From positions 310,001 through 374,000 of the forward strand of contig JAPPLJ010000050.1 of NCBI GenBank assembly GCA_028819475.1: a stretch of 64,000 nt of DNA, in the 5' to 3' direction. A model generated the notes under the pieces. That model searched no databases. It was not told the origin of the DNA and worked only from the letters and a program-made list of their open reading frames with translations. A program made the translations under genes and the position numbers. Numbering within the stretch: the stretch's first letter is position 1; each line of letters opens with the position of its first letter. Positions 2,895-18,020 of the stretch are shown here, piece after piece. Source of the DNA: Rhodospirillaceae bacterium (GTDB lineage: Bacteria > Pseudomonadota > Alphaproteobacteria > Bin65).

Positions 2895-3872
2895 ATGAAG
2901 ACCCGCATCACCGAAATGCTCGGCATCGAGCACCCGATCATCCAGGGCGGCATGCACTATGTCGGCTTCGCCGAACTGGCGGCGGCGGTCTCCAACGCCG
3001 GCGGCTTCGGCATCATCACCGGCCTCACCCAGGAAACGCCGGAAGACCTGGCGAAGGAAATCGTCCGCTGCCGCGGCATGACCGACAAGCCCTTCGGCGT
3101 CAATCTGACGATCCTGCCCTCGTTTCGCGACACGCCCTACGACGAATATATGGCGGCGATTATCGAAGGCGGCATCAAGGTGGTCGAGACCGCCGGGCGC
3201 AACCCGCAGCCGTTCCTGCCGCAGCTCAAGGAAAACGGCATCAAGGTCATCCACAAATGCACCTCGGTGCGCCATTCGCTCAAGGCGGAGGCGATCGGCT
3301 GCGACGCGGTTTCGGTCGACGGCTTCGAGTGCGGCGGCCATCCGGGCGAGGACGATATCCCGAACATGATCCTGCTGCCGCGGGCGGCCGACGAGCTGAC
3401 CATCCCGTTCGTCGCGTCCGGCGGCATGGCGGATGCGCGCAGCCTCGTCGCCTCGCTGGCGATGGGCGCGGACGGCATGAACATGGGCACCCGCTTCATC
3501 GCGACCAAAGAGGCGCCGGTCCACGATAGGGTGAAGCAGGCGATCGTCGCCGCGACGGAGCTGGACACAAGGCTGGTGATGCGGCCGCTGCGCAACACCG
3601 AGCGGGTGCTGACCAACGCGGCGGTGGAACGACTTCTGGAAAAGGAGCGGACCCTCGGCGACAGCATCCGGATCGACGACATCATGGACGAGGTGATGGG
3701 CGTCTATCCCAGGGTGATGCTCAAGGGCGACATGGATGCCGGCGCCTGGAGCTGCGGCCTGGTCGCCGGATTGATCCACGACATCCCGACCTGCAAGGAA
3801 CTGATCGACGGCATCATGGCCGAGGCCGAATTCCTGGTCCGCCGGCGGCTGGAAGGCATGCTGGCCGCCTGA
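2895..3872 (+). CDS. Nitronate monooxygenase / NPD family flavoprotein
   Basis: 325 aa TIM-barrel FMN enzyme. The N-terminus MLGIEHPIIQGGM and the phosphate-binding region VASGGMADARSLVASLAMGADG (about residues 174-195) are hallmarks of the NPD/nitronate monooxygenase family, which oxidises alkyl nitronates such as propionate 3-nitronate to carbonyl plus nitrite. GCDAVSVDGFECGGHPGED (about 135-153) carries the His found at the flavin site in many members. Some homologues are instead enoyl-reductase-like, so the substrate is uncertain. The gene is monocistronic, 162 bp downstream of and divergent from tRNA-Glu, and ends before the FNR-type site of the hemerythrin gene. Confidence 0.85.
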   Translation: MKTRITEMLGIEHPIIQGGMHYVGFAELAAAVSNAGGFGIITGLTQETPEDLAKEIVRCRGMTDKPFGVNLTILPSFRDTPYDEYMAAIIEGGIKVVETAGRNPQPFLPQLKENGIKVIHKCTSVRHSLKAEAIGCDAVSVDGFECGGHPGEDDIPNMILLPRAADELTIPFVASGGMADARSLVASLAMGADGMNMGTRFIATKEAPVHDRVKQAIVAATELDTRLVMRPLRNTERVLTNAAVERLLEKERTLGDSIRIDDIMDEVMGVYPRVMLKGDMDAGAWSCGLVAGLIHDIPTCKELIDGIMAEAEFLVRRRLEGMLAA

Positions 3873-3908: not shown

Positions 3909-3922
3909 TTGATTCACATCAA
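3909..3922 (+). promoter_or_regulatory. FNR/FixK-type operator
   Basis: TTGATTCACATCAA is a perfect TTGAT-N4-ATCAA palindrome, the consensus for Crp/Fnr-family regulators of the FNR/FixK/Anr group. It lies in the intergenic gap upstream of the hemerythrin-like gene, centred about 124 bp before its ATG. That leaves room for a class II promoter with a start near 3957 and a long leader. Binding is inferred from the motif only. Confidence 0.7.
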
Positions 3923-4039
3923 TGCGGCGCGCGCCCGCTTCAGCAACGATTCCCGCCTGAATGCCGAAACCGGGGCGTGCGTCCGGACCGCCCGGCGGAC
4001 GGGCGCACGCCCAACCGGAGTATTGCCCGGAGCATTGCC

Positions 4040-4729
4040 ATGTCGCAGGCCGCCCTCGATATCCTGAAACGGGAACACCGCGCGATCAGTGCGGTGCTGT
4101 TCTGCCTGAAGCACACGGTCGGCGAGGCGCGCAGGGGCGCGATCGTGCCGCCCTTCGCCATGATCCACGCCGTCCTGGATTACCTGACTTCCTTCCCGAA
4201 CCGGTTCCATCATCCCAAGGAGGATACCTACCTGTTTCCTGCGGTCCTGGCGCGCGCGCCGGATCTCGATCCGGTGATTTCCGAATTGCTGGCCCAGCAC
4301 GAGGAAGGCGAGGAACGGGTCAGCGACCTGAAGGACCGGGCCGCCGAACTGCAGACCCTGTGGAACGGACGCTGGCAGGGCGACGGCGCGGCCAAATTCG
4401 AGGCGTTCGCCGACGCCGTGGACAGTTACGTCGATTTCGAACGGGCGCACGGCCGCAAGGAAGGCGTCGAGGTCATGCCGCGGGCGCAGGAGGTGCTGAC
4501 CGAAGAAGACTGGGCCCCGATCGAGGCCGCTTTCAGCGCCAACGACGACCCGATCTTCGGCGAGGAGCCGCGCAGCCGCTTCGACAACCTCTATAGCCAG
4601 ATCGTCGCCCTCGCCCCCGCCCCGATGGGCTATGCCGAACGTGAGAAGCCGGAGAAGGCGCTGCCGAAGCCGGACTCGCCGCTCGAACAGGGCGCCCGCC
4701 AGAAGCTCCTGACCCTGAACTGGATTTGA
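4040..4729 (+). CDS. Hemerythrin HHE cation-binding domain protein
   Basis: 229 aa. The start chosen is the ATG at 4040, where the domain begins (MSQAALDILKREHRAI); an upstream in-frame ATG at 3881 would add 53 unconserved residues and bury the FNR-type site inside the gene. Candidate di-iron ligands are H13, H57/H58, E61 (HHPKEDTYLFP), H87 (AQHEEGEE), H137 and E141 (ERAHGRKEGVE), spaced as in HHE proteins. The family binds O2 or NO at a non-heme di-iron centre or serves in stress and iron handling. A perfect FNR-type box upstream suggests control by oxygen or NO. The C-terminal 60 residues are charged, proline-containing and of unknown role. Confidence 0.85.
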   Translation: MSQAALDILKREHRAISAVLFCLKHTVGEARRGAIVPPFAMIHAVLDYLTSFPNRFHHPKEDTYLFPAVLARAPDLDPVISELLAQHEEGEERVSDLKDRAAELQTLWNGRWQGDGAAKFEAFADAVDSYVDFERAHGRKEGVEVMPRAQEVLTEEDWAPIEAAFSANDDPIFGEEPRSRFDNLYSQIVALAPAPMGYAEREKPEKALPKPDSPLEQGARQKLLTLNWI

Positions 4730-4839: not shown

Positions 4840-5127
4840 ATGGCCATGAAGAACCCGGTGCATCCCGGCGCCATCGTGCGCGAAGATTGCCTGAAGCCCC
4901 TCGGCCTGTCGGTCACGGAAGGGGCGAAGCGGCTCGGCGTCGGGCGCCAGACGCTCTCCAATCTGGTCAACGAAAAGGCAGCCGTATCGATCGAGATGGC
5001 CTACCGGCTGTCGAAGGCCTTCGGCTCGACGCCCGAGACCTGGCTCGGCATGCAACTGGCGTTCGATCTGTCCCGCTCCCGCGATCTGGAACGCAAGATC
5101 AAGATCGAACGAATTGCAGCAGCGTAG
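4840..5127 (+). CDS. higA: HigA family antitoxin / XRE-type regulator (orphan)
   Basis: 95 aa from ATG 4840, preceded by an AGGAG-like site in GTCAGGAGCGCACGTC. The start HPGAIVREDCLKPLGLSV and the helix-turn-helix GAKRLGVGRQTLSNLVN, followed by AVSIEMAYRLSKAFGSTPETWLGMQ, match HigA antitoxins closely. HigA normally neutralises the HigB mRNA endonuclease and represses its own operon. HigB usually lies just upstream, but only 110 bp separate this gene from the hemerythrin gene and no toxin-like reading frame is there or downstream, where tRNA-Leu follows 38 bp on. It may be a solitary antitoxin left from a lost pair, or an independent regulator. Confidence 0.85.
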   Translation: MAMKNPVHPGAIVREDCLKPLGLSVTEGAKRLGVGRQTLSNLVNEKAAVSIEMAYRLSKAFGSTPETWLGMQLAFDLSRSRDLERKIKIERIAAA

Positions 5128-5165: not shown

Positions 5166-5252
5166 TGGTGCCCGCTGCGAGACTTGAACTCGCACTCGCT
5201 TTCGCGAAAGGGATTTTAAGTCCCTCGTGTCTACCGATTCCACCAAGCGGGC
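5166..5252 (-). tRNA. tRNA-Leu (anticodon TAA)
   Basis: 87 nt on the reverse strand. Acceptor arms GCCCGCT (5252-5246) and AGCGGGC (5176-5170) pair. The anticodon stem AGGGA/TCCCT closes the loop CTTAAAA, giving TAA. A long class II variable arm (TTCGCGAAAGCGA) and the T loop GTTCAAGTC are present, and CCA is encoded (5168-5166). No integrase or att-like duplication was seen beside it. Confidence 0.96.
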
Positions 5253-10215: not shown

Positions 10216-11796
10216 ATGGCTGCCCACACCGTCACCGTCACTCCGGACAGCGCTAACGGCGCCGCCCTCGATTTCGCGGCGCCGTTCAACGCCGCCGTGG
10301 CCTTCATCGACCGGCACATAGGGGAAGGCCGCAGCACCAAGTCCGCCATCCTGACGACGGCGGGCGAAGAGGTCAGCTACGGGCAACTGGCCATCGGGGT
10401 AAACCGGTACGGCAATGCCCTGAGGGGCCTCGGCATCGAAACCGGCGACCGGCTGCTGATGGTGGTGAAGGACTGCCCGGAATTCTTTTTCGTCTTCTGG
10501 GGCGCCATCAAGGCCGGCATCGTGCCGGTGCCGCTCAACACGCTGCTCACGGCGAAGGATTACCGCTACATGATCGACGATTCGGCGGCTGCCGCCATCG
10601 TCTGGTCGCCCGAGTTTGATGGCGCGGTGCGCGATGCGCTCGCGCAGGCGGACCACAAGCCGGCGCATCTGCTGCGGCAGGACCGGGCGGCGGCGCTGGC
10701 GGCGCAGGCCTCCGACGGCCTCGAACCGTATCCCAGCGAAGCCGGCGACGATTGTTTCTGGCTCTATTCCTCCGGCTCGACCGGCTTCCCGAAAGGCGCG
10801 ATCCACCGGCATCGCGACATGGTCGTGACCAGCCAGCAATACGGCGTGGACCTGCTCGGTGTCGGCGAGGACGATATCTGCTTCTCCGCCGCCAAGCTGT
10901 TCTTCGCCTACGGCCTGGCCAACTCCATGACCTTCCCGCTCTGGGTCGGCGCCACGGCGGTGCTGGCCGCCGAACGGCCGACGCCGCAGATGACTTTCGA
11001 CATTTTCGAGCGCTTCCGCCCAACGCTCTTTTTCGGCGTGCCGACGCTCTACGCCGCACAACTGGCGGCGATCGACGGCGGCGCGGCCTGCGACGTGGCG
11101 AGCGTCCGCTGGTGCGTCTCGGCCGGCGAGGCCCTGCCGGCCGACATCTTCCGGCGCTGGCGGGAAACGACCGGCACGACGATCCTGGACGGCATCGGCT
11201 CGACGGAGGCGTTGTACATCTTCATCTCCAACCGGCGCGATATCCAGAAACCGGGCACGAGCGGGCTTGTTATACCCGGCTACGAGGCGCGCATCGTCGG
11301 CGAGGACGGCGCGCCGGCCGCCGCCGGGGAAGCCGGCGCGCTGCAGATCCGGGGCGGCTCGACGGCGCGCGGCTACTGGAACCTGCCGGAAAAAACCGCG
11401 GCGACCATGCTGGACGGCGGCTGGCTCGATACCGGCGACACTTACAGGACCGACGAGGACGGCTGCTTCGTCTGCGAGGGCCGGTCCGACGACATGATGA
11501 AGGTCGGTGGCATCTGGACCTCGCCGGTCGAGATCGAGGCCTGCCTGATCGGCCATCCCAAGGTTCTGGAGGCGGCCATTGTCGCCCGCGACGACGAGGC
11601 CGGCCTCGTCAAGCCCGAAGCCTGGGTGGTGCGCGCCGACGGTGTGACCGACGACGAAGCGGCGCTACAGGAAGAACTGCATGGCCACGTCAAGGCCAGC
11701 CTGGCGCCCTACAAGTATCCGCGCTGGTGGAAATTCGTCGACGCACTGCCCAAGACCGCAACCGGCAAGATCCAGCGCTTCAAGCTGCGCGGTTAG
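10216..11796 (+). CDS. Benzoate-CoA ligase family AMP-forming acyl-CoA synthetase
   Basis: 526 aa, cytosolic. ATP plus an aromatic or related acid and CoA would give acyl-CoA, AMP and pyrophosphate. The P-loop YSSGSTGFPKG is at about residues 184-194, the A5 motif DGIGSTEALYIF near 330, the A7/A8 region GDTYRTDEDGCFVCEGRSDDM near 411-431, and the catalytic lysine is K518 (PKTATGK). Length and motif wording (GSTEALYIFISN, ARGYWN) fit the benzoate-CoA ligase family rather than acetyl- or fatty-acyl-CoA synthetases. A GAGGAG site precedes the ATG. The 4-hydroxybenzoyl-CoA reductase operon 3.3 kb downstream fits an aromatic-CoA role, but related ligases accept other acids. The 3' end overlaps the convergent dioxygenase gene by 17 bp. 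Confidence 0.83.
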   Translation: MAAHTVTVTPDSANGAALDFAAPFNAAVAFIDRHIGEGRSTKSAILTTAGEEVSYGQLAIGVNRYGNALRGLGIETGDRLLMVVKDCPEFFFVFWGAIKAGIVPVPLNTLLTAKDYRYMIDDSAAAAIVWSPEFDGAVRDALAQADHKPAHLLRQDRAAALAAQASDGLEPYPSEAGDDCFWLYSSGSTGFPKGAIHRHRDMVVTSQQYGVDLLGVGEDDICFSAAKLFFAYGLANSMTFPLWVGATAVLAAERPTPQMTFDIFERFRPTLFFGVPTLYAAQLAAIDGGAACDVASVRWCVSAGEALPADIFRRWRETTGTTILDGIGSTEALYIFISNRRDIQKPGTSGLVIPGYEARIVGEDGAPAAAGEAGALQIRGGSTARGYWNLPEKTAATMLDGGWLDTGDTYRTDEDGCFVCEGRSDDMMKVGGIWTSPVEIEACLIGHPKVLEAAIVARDDEAGLVKPEAWVVRADGVTDDEAALQEELHGHVKASLAPYKYPRWWKFVDALPKTATGKIQRFKLRG

Positions 11797-15113: not shown

Positions 15114-15641
15114 ATGGCGAAACGGATCGTCAGTTTCACCCTCAACGGGCGGGCGCATGACGGCGTCGTGCCGGACAACACCCTGCTGCTCGACTATCTG
15201 CGCGAAGGACTCGGCCTGACCGGCACCAAGACCGGCTGCGACGGCGGCGAATGCGGCGCCTGCACGGTGCTGGTCGACGGCCGCGCGCAGCTCTCCTGCC
15301 TCACCCTGGTCGGCCAGGTCGCCGGCACGTCGGTCGAGACGGTCGAGGGCCTGGCGCACAACGGCCGGCTGTCGGACGTGCAGGAAGGCTTCCACATGAA
15401 GCTGGGCGCACAGTGCGGCGCCTGCACGCCGGGCTTCGTCATGGCGACCGAGGCGCTGCTGCGCCGGAACCCGGCGCCGGACGACGACGACATCCGCGAG
15501 GCGCTGGGCAGCAACATCTGCCGCTGCACCGGCTACATCAAGATTCTGGATGCGGTGCACCACGCCGCGGCGCGCCGGCGGGGCGAGGAGCCGGCGCCCT
15601 ACCCGCCGCTTCCGGACCGGGTGGCGGACCGGGTGGCGTAA
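15114..15641 (+). CDS. hcrC: 4-Hydroxybenzoyl-CoA reductase-type gamma subunit, two [2Fe-2S] clusters
   Basis: 175 aa small subunit of a xanthine-oxidase-family molybdenum hydroxylase. It carries a plant-ferredoxin [2Fe-2S] motif (C42, C47, C50, C62 in GCDGGECGAC...LSC) and the second [2Fe-2S] motif (C101, C104, C136, C138 in CGACTPGF...CRCTGY). It shuttles electrons between FAD and the molybdopterin site. On its own it could belong to any CO- or xanthine-dehydrogenase-like enzyme. The assignment comes from the FAD subunit two genes downstream, which has the 4-hydroxybenzoyl-CoA reductase-specific cluster loop. The downstream gene begins 15 bp after the stop, with GGGGAGG in the gap. Confidence 0.85.
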   Translation: MAKRIVSFTLNGRAHDGVVPDNTLLLDYLREGLGLTGTKTGCDGGECGACTVLVDGRAQLSCLTLVGQVAGTSVETVEGLAHNGRLSDVQEGFHMKLGAQCGACTPGFVMATEALLRRNPAPDDDDIREALGSNICRCTGYIKILDAVHHAAARRRGEEPAPYPPLPDRVADRVA

Positions 15642-15656
15642 CGGGGAGGCGGAGCA

Positions 15657-18020
15657 ATGAACGAACAGGTCAAACCCGTCGATCCCGCCGCGGCCGAGCC
15701 GGTGCGCTCCATCGGCGAATACGTCCCGATGGTCGACGGGCCGGAGAAGGTTTCGGGCGCGGCGAAATACACCGCCGATTTCGTCGAGGGCGAGGCGCTG
15801 GAGGCCGCGATCCTGCGCAGCCCCTACGCCCATGCCGAAGTGCTTGAGGTCGATACTTCGGAAGCCGAGGCGATGCCGGGCGTCCGCGCCGTCGTGACCG
15901 GCGCGGACTGCGACAAGACCTTCGGCGTCCTGCCGATCGCGCGCGGCGAATACCCGCTGGCGCGCGACCGGGTGCGCTACAAGGGCGAGCCGGTCGCCGC
16001 CGTCGCGGCCGACGACATCCACATCGCCAAGGCGGCGGTCAAGAAGATCCGGATGAAGGTCAGGGAACTGCCGGCCTACTTCCGCTGCAAGGACGCCTAT
16101 GCCGAGGACGCCGTCGACCTGCACGAGCACCGGCCCGGCAACCTGGAGCGCGACGTGTTCTTCGAGCTCGGCGACGTCGAGGACGCCTTCGCCGGCTCGG
16201 ACCTGGTTATGGAGCGGAACTTCCATGCCGCCGAGGTCTGCCAGGCCCAGATGGAGATGCACAGCGCGCTGGTCTCCTATGATCCGCTGCGCGACCGGCT
16301 GACCTGCCAGTGCTCGACCCAGGTGCCCTACTACGTCCACCTGATGCTGGCCAAGGTGACCGGCATGGACCAGGGCCGCATCCGGGTCATCAAGCCCCAT
16401 GTCGGCGGCGGCTTCGGCGCCCGGACCGAGACGTTGCAGCCCGAACTGATCGCCGCCCTGCTCGCCCGCAAGATCGGCGGCGCGGTGCGGCTGCTGACGA
16501 CCCGGGAGGAGACCTTCATCACCCATCGCGGCCGGCCGGAGACCGACCTGCGGCTCAAGATCGGCATGGCGAAGGACGGCCGGATCACCGGCGTCGAGCT
16601 GGAGAACGACCAGCGCGGCGGCGCCCATTCGAGCTACGGCATCGTCACGATCCTCTATGCCGGCTCGCTGCTCTACGCGATCTACGACCTGCAGAATGTT
16701 CGCTATATCGGCCGGCGGGTGCTCACCAACACGCCGCCCTGCGGCGCCTTCCGCGGCCACGGCACGGTCAACACGCGCTTCGTGTTCGAATCACTGCTCG
16801 ACGAGATGGCGGAGGAACTGGGCCTCGACCCGATCGCGGTGCGGCGGCGCAACTATATCGAGGCGCCGGCCTTCACCCAGAACGACCTGATGATCAATTC
16901 CTACGGCCTGCCCGAATGCGTCGACTGGGTCGAGGAGGCGAGCGGCTGGAAGGAAAAGCGGGCAAAGGGCCTGCCCGATCCCGGGCCGGGCAAGAAGAAG
17001 GGCATCGGCTTTGCCGCCTCCCACTATATCTCCGGCGCCTCCAAGCCGGTGAACTGGACCGGCGAGCCACACGCGACGGTCAATCTCAAGCTGGACTGGG
17101 ACGGCGCGATCACCGTGCTGACCGGTGCTGCCGAGATCGGCCAGGGCTCGTCGACCCTGGTCGCGCAGATCACGGCCGACGTGCTCGGCCTGCCGATCGA
17201 CCGCATCCGGGTGATTGCGGCCGACAGCGAGGTCACGCCCAAGGACAACGGTTCCTATTCCTCCCGCGTCACCTTCTATGTCGGCAACGCGACGCTCGAA
17301 GCGGCCGTGAACCTGCGCAAGATCCTGGTCGAGGCGGCGGCGCGCAAGCTGGAGGCCAATCCCGAGGACATCGAGGTGCTGGGCGAATATTACCGCGCCG
17401 GCAGCCAGGATACCGGCATCCCCTTCCAGGAAGTGGTCATGGAAGCGCTGCGCGACACCGGCACGATCACGACCAAGGGCATCTACAACACGATCCCCGA
17501 GAGCTGGGGCGGCAAGAAATACCGCGGCGCCGCGATCGGCGGCACGATGGGCTTTTCCTACGCCGCCCAGGCGGTCGAGGTCACGGTCGACGAGACCAGC
17601 GGCGAGGTCACGGTCGACGATGTCTGGGTCGCCCACGATTGCGGCAAGGCGCTCAACCGGCTGACCGTCGAGGGCCAGGTCGAGGGCTCGGTCTGGATGG
17701 GCATGGGCCAGGCGCTGAGCGAGGAGACCGGCTACTACAACGGCCTCAACCTCGCCAACAACCTGCTCGACTACCGGGTGCCGACGATCCAGGATTCGCC
17801 GCCGATCCACACCCATATCGTCGAATCCAACGATCCCCACGGCCCCTATGGCGCCAAGGAGGCCGGCGAAGGCTCGCTCAGCAGCTTCATCCCGGCGGTC
17901 GCCAACGCGATTTACGACGCCACCGGCATACGCTTTCCCGACACGCCGATTACGCCGGACAAGGTGTTCCTCGCCCTCGAAAAGGCCGCCCGGTTCGGTG
18001 CCAAGAAGAAGGCCGCCTGA
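15657..18020 (+). CDS. hcrA: 4-Hydroxybenzoyl-CoA reductase-type alpha subunit, molybdopterin-binding
   Basis: 787 aa large subunit. It contains the aldehyde oxidase/xanthine dehydrogenase hammerhead domain (about residues 20-130) and the molybdopterin-binding domain with GGGFGART (about 258-265), a substrate-channel [13 protein letters not shown] block (about 363-375), [15 protein letters not shown] (about 490-504) and the catalytic-glutamate loop [13 protein letters not shown] (about 732-744). With the gamma and FAD subunits it forms a cytosolic hydroxylase/reductase. In 4-hydroxybenzoyl-CoA reductase the complex removes the para hydroxyl to give benzoyl-CoA. The stop TGA overlaps the next ATG (TGATG), which implies translational coupling. 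Substrate identity is inferred from the FAD subunit and the nearby benzoate-CoA-ligase-type gene. Confidence 0.85.

Follow-up and report, generated by a model that had tools for sequence, protein, structure and literature searches.

An FNR-type box conserved upstream of a gene for a hemerythrin-like protein with a RIC-type ligand set in an alphaproteobacterium

Results

Organization of the locus

The DNA analyzed here (the window) is a 64,000-nt stretch of a Rhodospirillaceae genome (G000; 4.48 Mb, 72 contigs) from a lineage which we take to be sponge-associated Alphaproteobacteria. Its hemerythrin-like gene and the elements in front of it are listed in Table 1. The coding region begins with ATG 4040 and its product is the only one in the genome that matches PF01814 at E ≤ 0.001. 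The sequence-only reading, in which the box precedes a single di-iron candidate gene, was borne out. Upstream of the box, an NMO-family gene (2895-3872) ends 36 nt before it. On the downstream side, there is a HigA-family antitoxin gene (4840-5127, TIGR02607 match), which is followed by a tRNA-Leu on the opposite strand (5166-5252).

A longer reading frame starting at GTG 3881 would place the box inside the coding region. We rejected this start because conservation of the N-terminus sets in at 4040 and because the frame is not kept in the stretch between box and ATG, which measures 117, 104, 78, 78, 133, and 105 nt in six members of the genus. The leader can fold into a very stable G+C-rich hairpin, and in the nearest relative (G001), we found a matching stem that is paired though differing. 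In G002 and G003, the leader has a length of 78 nt and the hairpin is missing; for G004 and G005, folding is strong but takes another form. The hairpin was rejected as a conserved RNA element, as its stem is matched in the nearest relative only. Since the stem differs or is absent in the other genus members, it is probably not essential.

Table 1. Features of the hemerythrin-like gene and its upstream region (positions in the window)
Feature	Position	Strand	Basis
FNR-type box TTGATTCACATCAA	3909..3922	+	exact, unique in window, 3 in genome vs 0 for control pattern, kept at orthologous genes
Predicted -10 hexamer AACGAT, start 23 nt after box end	3945..3950	+	phasing over 29 loci; inferred
Inferred transcription start, box centered at -41.5 (class II)	3957	+	geometry inference
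G+C-rich leader hairpin	3973..4012	+	-36.2 kcal/mol for 48-nt stretch
Likely ribosome-binding site GGAG, 7 nt before ATG	4029..4032	+	sequence
Hemerythrin-like (HHE) di-iron protein, 229 aa	4040..4729	+	PF01814 E=4.7e-13 over residues 5-134; residue conservation

The box and its frequency

The box is an exact palindrome (TTGAT-TCAC-ATCAA), and a pattern scan confirmed that it is the only exact TTGAT-N4-ATCAA site of the window, as had been noticed before. With up to two mismatches allowed, the window contained 15 sites, one of them exact (shuffles: mean 7.5, maximum 15). For the whole genome, we counted three exact sites and none for the reversed control pattern, which works out at about 0.04 exact sites for every 64 kb. 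The looser pattern TTGAYN4RTCAA gave 8 sites versus 2 for its control.

Conservation of the box upstream of orthologous genes

When 60 related genomes (own genome excluded) were searched, 11 of them yielded a protein match, including five of six from the same genus and three of four from other genera of the family. The genus member without a match (G006) is 96% complete. An exact TTGAYN4RTCAA site was present upstream in all six genus loci (own locus included, L034-L038 being taken as the G001-G005 loci and counted once) and in all three loci that represent other genera of the family. The spacer bases and the distance between box and ATG vary among these loci.

Across the class, 385 genomes were searched with a profile, which gave 39 matches in 33 of them. 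Four of these matches belong to the own genus, and the 35 others (examined as 26 plus 9 loci) gave, together with the three family loci, a set of 38 non-genus alphaproteobacterial loci. When the 250 bp preceding the profile match were examined, 13 of the 38 loci proved to carry an exact box. For one locus or more (L085 among them), the profile match starts within the gene itself. Sites with one mismatch or none were detected at 22 loci, and at the other 16 the best site had at least two mismatches. In 200 dinucleotide-preserving shuffles, which take the 38 loci as independent and ignore their relatedness, the corresponding means were 0.03 for exact sites (maximum 1) and 0.74 for sites with up to one mismatch (maximum 3). 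Control stretches of equal size further upstream and inside the genes contained no exact site (0/37, 0/37, 0/38, and 0/38), and the four stretches together gave a single site within one mismatch. At the level of families, exact sites occurred in 9 of 22 non-genus groups, with the other genera of the own family treated as one group.

A phylum-wide search produced 39 rows, four of which had already been counted and nine of which came without a locus and were left out. Among the remaining 26 loci (25 from other classes, 1 alphaproteobacterial), four carried an exact site and 12 a site within one mismatch, and for resampled sequence the means were 0.035 and 0.79, respectively. At least two mismatches were found at 14 of these loci, including eight of the nine loci of the large family f203, none of which has an exact site. 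Six plasmid loci were read from 31 plasmid records; two had an exact box, three a site with one mismatch and one had none. Both exact boxes are betaproteobacterial, and two of the three one-mismatch sites lie 190 and 218 nt away. Judged from these counts, the link between box and gene is common across loci but not universal. At one locus (L091, G193:C82:62078-63315), the hemerythrin-like gene is repeated in tandem, and an exact box stands at the first copy only.

Promoter geometry

We next consider the position of the box relative to the -10 element. For this purpose, we selected 29 loci in which a box is present; L072, L085, L104, and L105, which have one mismatch, and the loci of the phylum-wide search were not part of the set. 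At the selected loci, a TATAAT-like hexamer scored best at an offset of 23 nt after the box end. It reached 2.48 of 6 matches there, whereas the 55 offsets averaged 1.25 (sd 0.31), and offset 28 was second (2.03). When the genus was excluded (23 loci), offset 23 was still the best one (2.43) with offset 28 close to it (2.26). The hexamer of the present gene is weak, with three of six matches to TATAAT. In class II FNR promoters, a spacing of 23 nt to the -10 element corresponds to a site centered at -41.5, and the geometry observed would fit a promoter of this class.

Properties of the encoded protein

The Pfam search assigned a single domain to the protein (PF01814 Hemerythrin, 50.2 bits, cut-off 25.3), which starts at residue 5 and supports the proposed di-iron (HHE) class. 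Neither a ScdA_N domain nor a fused output domain was found by Pfam, and known hemerythrin sensors differ in the latter respect. None of the NCBIfam models matched the protein at E up to 0.1.

Six ligand-type residues (H13, H57, E61, H87, H137, E141) can be recognized, and the C-terminal part carries DW and DPxFG motifs. We aligned 48 proteins (own protein, 21 of the 26 class loci and the 26 loci of the phylum-wide search; L085, L086, L088, L089, L090, and nine further class loci were left out). It can be seen from this alignment that H13, H57, H137, and E141 are present in all 48 sequences and E61 and H87 in 45 each. The published ligand set of YtfE comprises H84, H129, E133, H160, H204, and E208 (PMC9268430). 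The histidines are spaced by 44, 30, and 50 residues here and by 45, 31, and 44 residues in YtfE. Thus, the four-His, two-Glu set conforms to the YtfE/RIC pattern as judged from motif and spacing against the published positions and not from direct alignment. Beside H87, there is Q86 where YtfE has E159, and 28 of the 48 relatives have E at this position. The classical O2-carrier motif is described as H-HxxxE-HxxxH-HxxxxD with five histidines (PMC9388753), and the present protein deviates from it with E at position 91 and G at position 142. Because of the missing ScdA_N domain, the lack of an NCBIfam match, Q86 and the deviation from the five-His motif, the protein appears to combine a RIC-like site with membership in neither the RIC nor the classical hemerythrin family. 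Structure prediction from six close sequences gave a mean pLDDT of 54, which is too low to confirm the fold, and a sequence search of solved structures returned one weak hit (2p0n, E=0.73).

Crp/FNR proteins and other genes with boxes

The genome encodes one PF00325 protein (255 aa, L012:7456-8223), which carries C20, C23, C31, and C119 as well as an ETVSR helix. Its best solved relative is FNR (9qlt, 2.8e-28), and in the alignment C20, C23, and C119 fall on cysteines of FNR, whereas C31 is displaced by two residues (x7, not x5). We take the x7 spacing to be a working variant for the [4Fe-4S] cluster of FNR. The best NCBIfam match of this protein is FnrL with 160 bits, below the model cut-off of 300. 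Two further Crp/FNR proteins scored above the Pfam cut-off, both with E-x-x-SR, and one of them is DNR-like (L015:5159-5959; best match 3dkw, 1.4e-27). A search for fnr, fixK, or dnr genes had been proposed as a check of FNR-type control, and it turned up an fnr gene and a DNR-like gene.

The fnr gene is adjoined by a convergent Usp gene, and 47 nt separate the longest frame of the latter from an exact box upstream. A DUF2189 gene and ccoN, which belongs to a cbb3 oxidase, are arranged divergently, and the region between them contains another box (TTGACTTATATCAA). The third exact site, TTGATATAAATCAA (L002:1501-1514; G000:C50:169269-169282), precedes a solute-binding protein gene. It also precedes a Cys/Met metabolism gene, provided that this gene starts at an ATG beyond the box; the longest frame of the gene takes in the box. 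The palindromic site of TTGATATAAATCAA occurs once each in G002, G003, and G004. Of the other four looser sites, L019:1501-1514 (G000:C20:99695-99708) is located 163 nt upstream of a dehydrogenase E1 (PF00676) gene, in the gap between genes, and is possibly an FNR link to pyruvate oxidation. The L017 site falls within the end of one frame and is followed 12 nt later by a binding-protein gene, the L020 site lies within a permease gene, and the L018 site has no coding-like frame close by.

Discussion

Proposed mechanism and alternative explanations

The conservation of the box, the promoter geometry and the fnr gene strongly support the FNR-type control that the sequence-only reading had put forward. 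We consider it likely that the gene is switched on at low O2 by FNR acting as class II activator and that it encodes a candidate di-iron protein with a RIC-type site. At low oxygen, FNR with an intact [4Fe-4S] cluster would dimerize and bind the box. From its position near -41.5, bound FNR would recruit RNA polymerase to the predicted -10 element and the start near 3957. Transcription of the gene would then give a four-helix HHE protein, predicted to hold two iron ions in a YtfE/RIC-type site and to lack the N-terminal domain of RIC proteins. This product would share a low-oxygen program with the cbb3 oxidase and a Usp protein. The regulation of the gene is thus well supported by these comparisons and its chemistry less settled. 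O2 binding or scavenging, which may support or protect low-oxygen respiration, appears to be the leading candidate for its role, though we hold this view with some reserve, and chemistry with NO or in the repair of Fe-S centers comes only slightly behind it. The sequence by itself gives no preference for any one of O2 delivery, O2 sensing, and NO defense.

Three other explanations have to be weighed against FNR activation at low O2. The palindrome might be a chance match and the gene might stand outside FNR-type control, since the genome density of exact sites leaves room for a chance site in the window. We regard this as very improbable in view of the sites at orthologues, with exact ones in 9 of 22 non-genus groups and controls near zero, and of the phased -10 hexamer downstream of the box. 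The box might instead mainly serve a DNR-like regulator, and the protein might be a YtfE/RIC-like factor of NO defense or Fe-S repair. An NO-responsive regulator could bind the box in place of FNR because there are two more Crp/FNR proteins with E-x-x-SR, one of them DNR-like. The YtfE-type ligand set with its nearly equal spacing fits this explanation, as do the lack of a globin-family match in the genome, so that no flavohemoglobin was found, and the description of RICs as answering to NO-responsive factors (PMC9268430). However, we found no NirK match in the genome, and its two heme-copper oxidase matches are of the ccoN and CtaD types with no NorB among them. No own source of NO was therefore seen in these searches, which covered NirK and NorB-type proteins. 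Moreover, boxes are otherwise found at low-oxygen genes (ccoN, Usp), the ScdA_N domain is absent and Q86 replaces E159 of YtfE, although E prevails at this position in the relatives. On balance, we judge this explanation unlikely, but worth serious attention.

It is less likely still that the protein is a classical O2-carrying bacteriohemerythrin, which feeds the cbb3 oxidase like Mhr of P. aeruginosa. Mhr is described as Anr-controlled and as epistatic to the cbb3 oxidases (PMC12403760), and the genes with a box in the present genome include ccoN. The carrier motif is, however, broken at positions 91 and 142, no NCBIfam model matches, and for a P. aeruginosa mhr mutant, one study reports no significant difference in microoxic growth (PMC12403760). 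O2 chemistry as such may nevertheless apply to the present protein because Myxococcus proteins with the same residue set (H-HxxxE-H-HxxxE) are reported to bind O2 in vitro, which was the case for four of five purified proteins (PMC12753109). Activation by FNR of a gene for a RIC-type-site protein is the explanation we prefer.

Relation to known systems

Hemerythrins controlled by FNR or Anr have already been published, and the nearest precedents are Mhr of P. aeruginosa and the FNR regulon of Candidatus Accumulibacter. Mhr resembles the present case in its hemerythrin class and in its activation by an FNR-type O2 sensor (Anr) together with a cbb3 oxidase, but according to its description, by which we set the two proteins apart, it reversibly binds O2, whereas the protein studied here lacks the five-histidine motif (PMC12403760). 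In Candidatus Accumulibacter, the genes reported with an FNR motif include hemerythrin, uspA, and cco, and their transcripts are described as going up in the anaerobic stage (PMC6446978). This is another organism, and the likeness holds at the level of the hemerythrin name. The present protein has the four His and two Glu of YtfE/RIC in corresponding places and similarly spaced (PMC9268430) but differs in the absence of ScdA_N and in the replaced E159. The E. coli ytfE gene is presented there as NsrR-repressed and without a recognized FNR site, in contrast to the FNR-type box found here. MXAN_5531 of Myxococcus xanthus and its relatives are single-domain proteins with H-HxxxE-H-HxxxE, and one of them is assigned to a low-oxygen regulon together with cbb3 (PMC11841059, PMC12753109); in that case, however, NmpR and not FNR is reported to bind.

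Looser parallels, at the level of the hemerythrin-like annotation, are the predicted HcpR regulons, which often hold hemerythrin-like genes under an FNR-like regulator (PMC1274295), and Magnetospirillum, where several hemerythrin-like genes are reported to be raised without oxygen (PMC9549626). Another study lists a hemerythrin gene among the PhaR targets. In the main text (supplements excluded) of a study on alphaproteobacterial FnrN/FixK regulons, the word hemerythrin is absent (PMC4999443), and judged by title, we found no literature on hemerythrin in alphaproteobacterial sponge symbionts. The gene is a conserved candidate FNR target in a lineage whose named relatives are metagenome bins, and from the comparison of loci, many alphaproteobacterial families seem to place hemerythrin-like proteins of the RIC type under FNR-type control.

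Possible association with Usp proteins

The least expected part of the analysis is an apparent, repeated tie to Usp proteins. On plasmid pAZKH of Azoarcus sp. KH32C (L105:5542-6567), a Usp domain (residues 1-145) is fused to a hemerythrin-like domain (residues 158-292). Variovorax paradoxus has a Usp gene divergent from the hemerythrin-like gene with an exact box in between, in G010 a Usp-matching frame ends just before the box, and in the own genome the Usp gene beside fnr is boxed as well. We put forward, as a speculation to which we give rather little weight, that these proteins form a proteobacterial family, as yet without a name, whose di-iron members (RIC-type site, DPxFG tail) are activated by FNR. 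Its members would partner low-oxygen Usp proteins and would protect or repair iron centers labile to O2 or NO, possibly including the cluster of FNR itself. If the Usp link holds, it could serve as a starting point for learning the function of low-oxygen Usp proteins.

Other observations in the window and the genome

The DNR-like regulator (L015:5159-5959) occurs in a genome without a match for NirK or a NorB-type oxidase. The anaerobic-type enzymes that had been expected elsewhere in the window were found in part. At 15114-18020, a [2Fe-2S] protein gene is accompanied by a gene for the alpha subunit of 4-hydroxybenzoyl-CoA reductase (TIGR03194, above cut-off), and a gene of the benzoate-CoA ligase family is located nearby (10216-11796). 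The same window also encodes a P450, a TauD-type dioxygenase, and COX15/CtaA, which do not fit that expectation. By annotation, the genes at 15114-18020 represent a step of aromatic metabolism of the anaerobic type, which here shares the window with the P450 and the dioxygenase.
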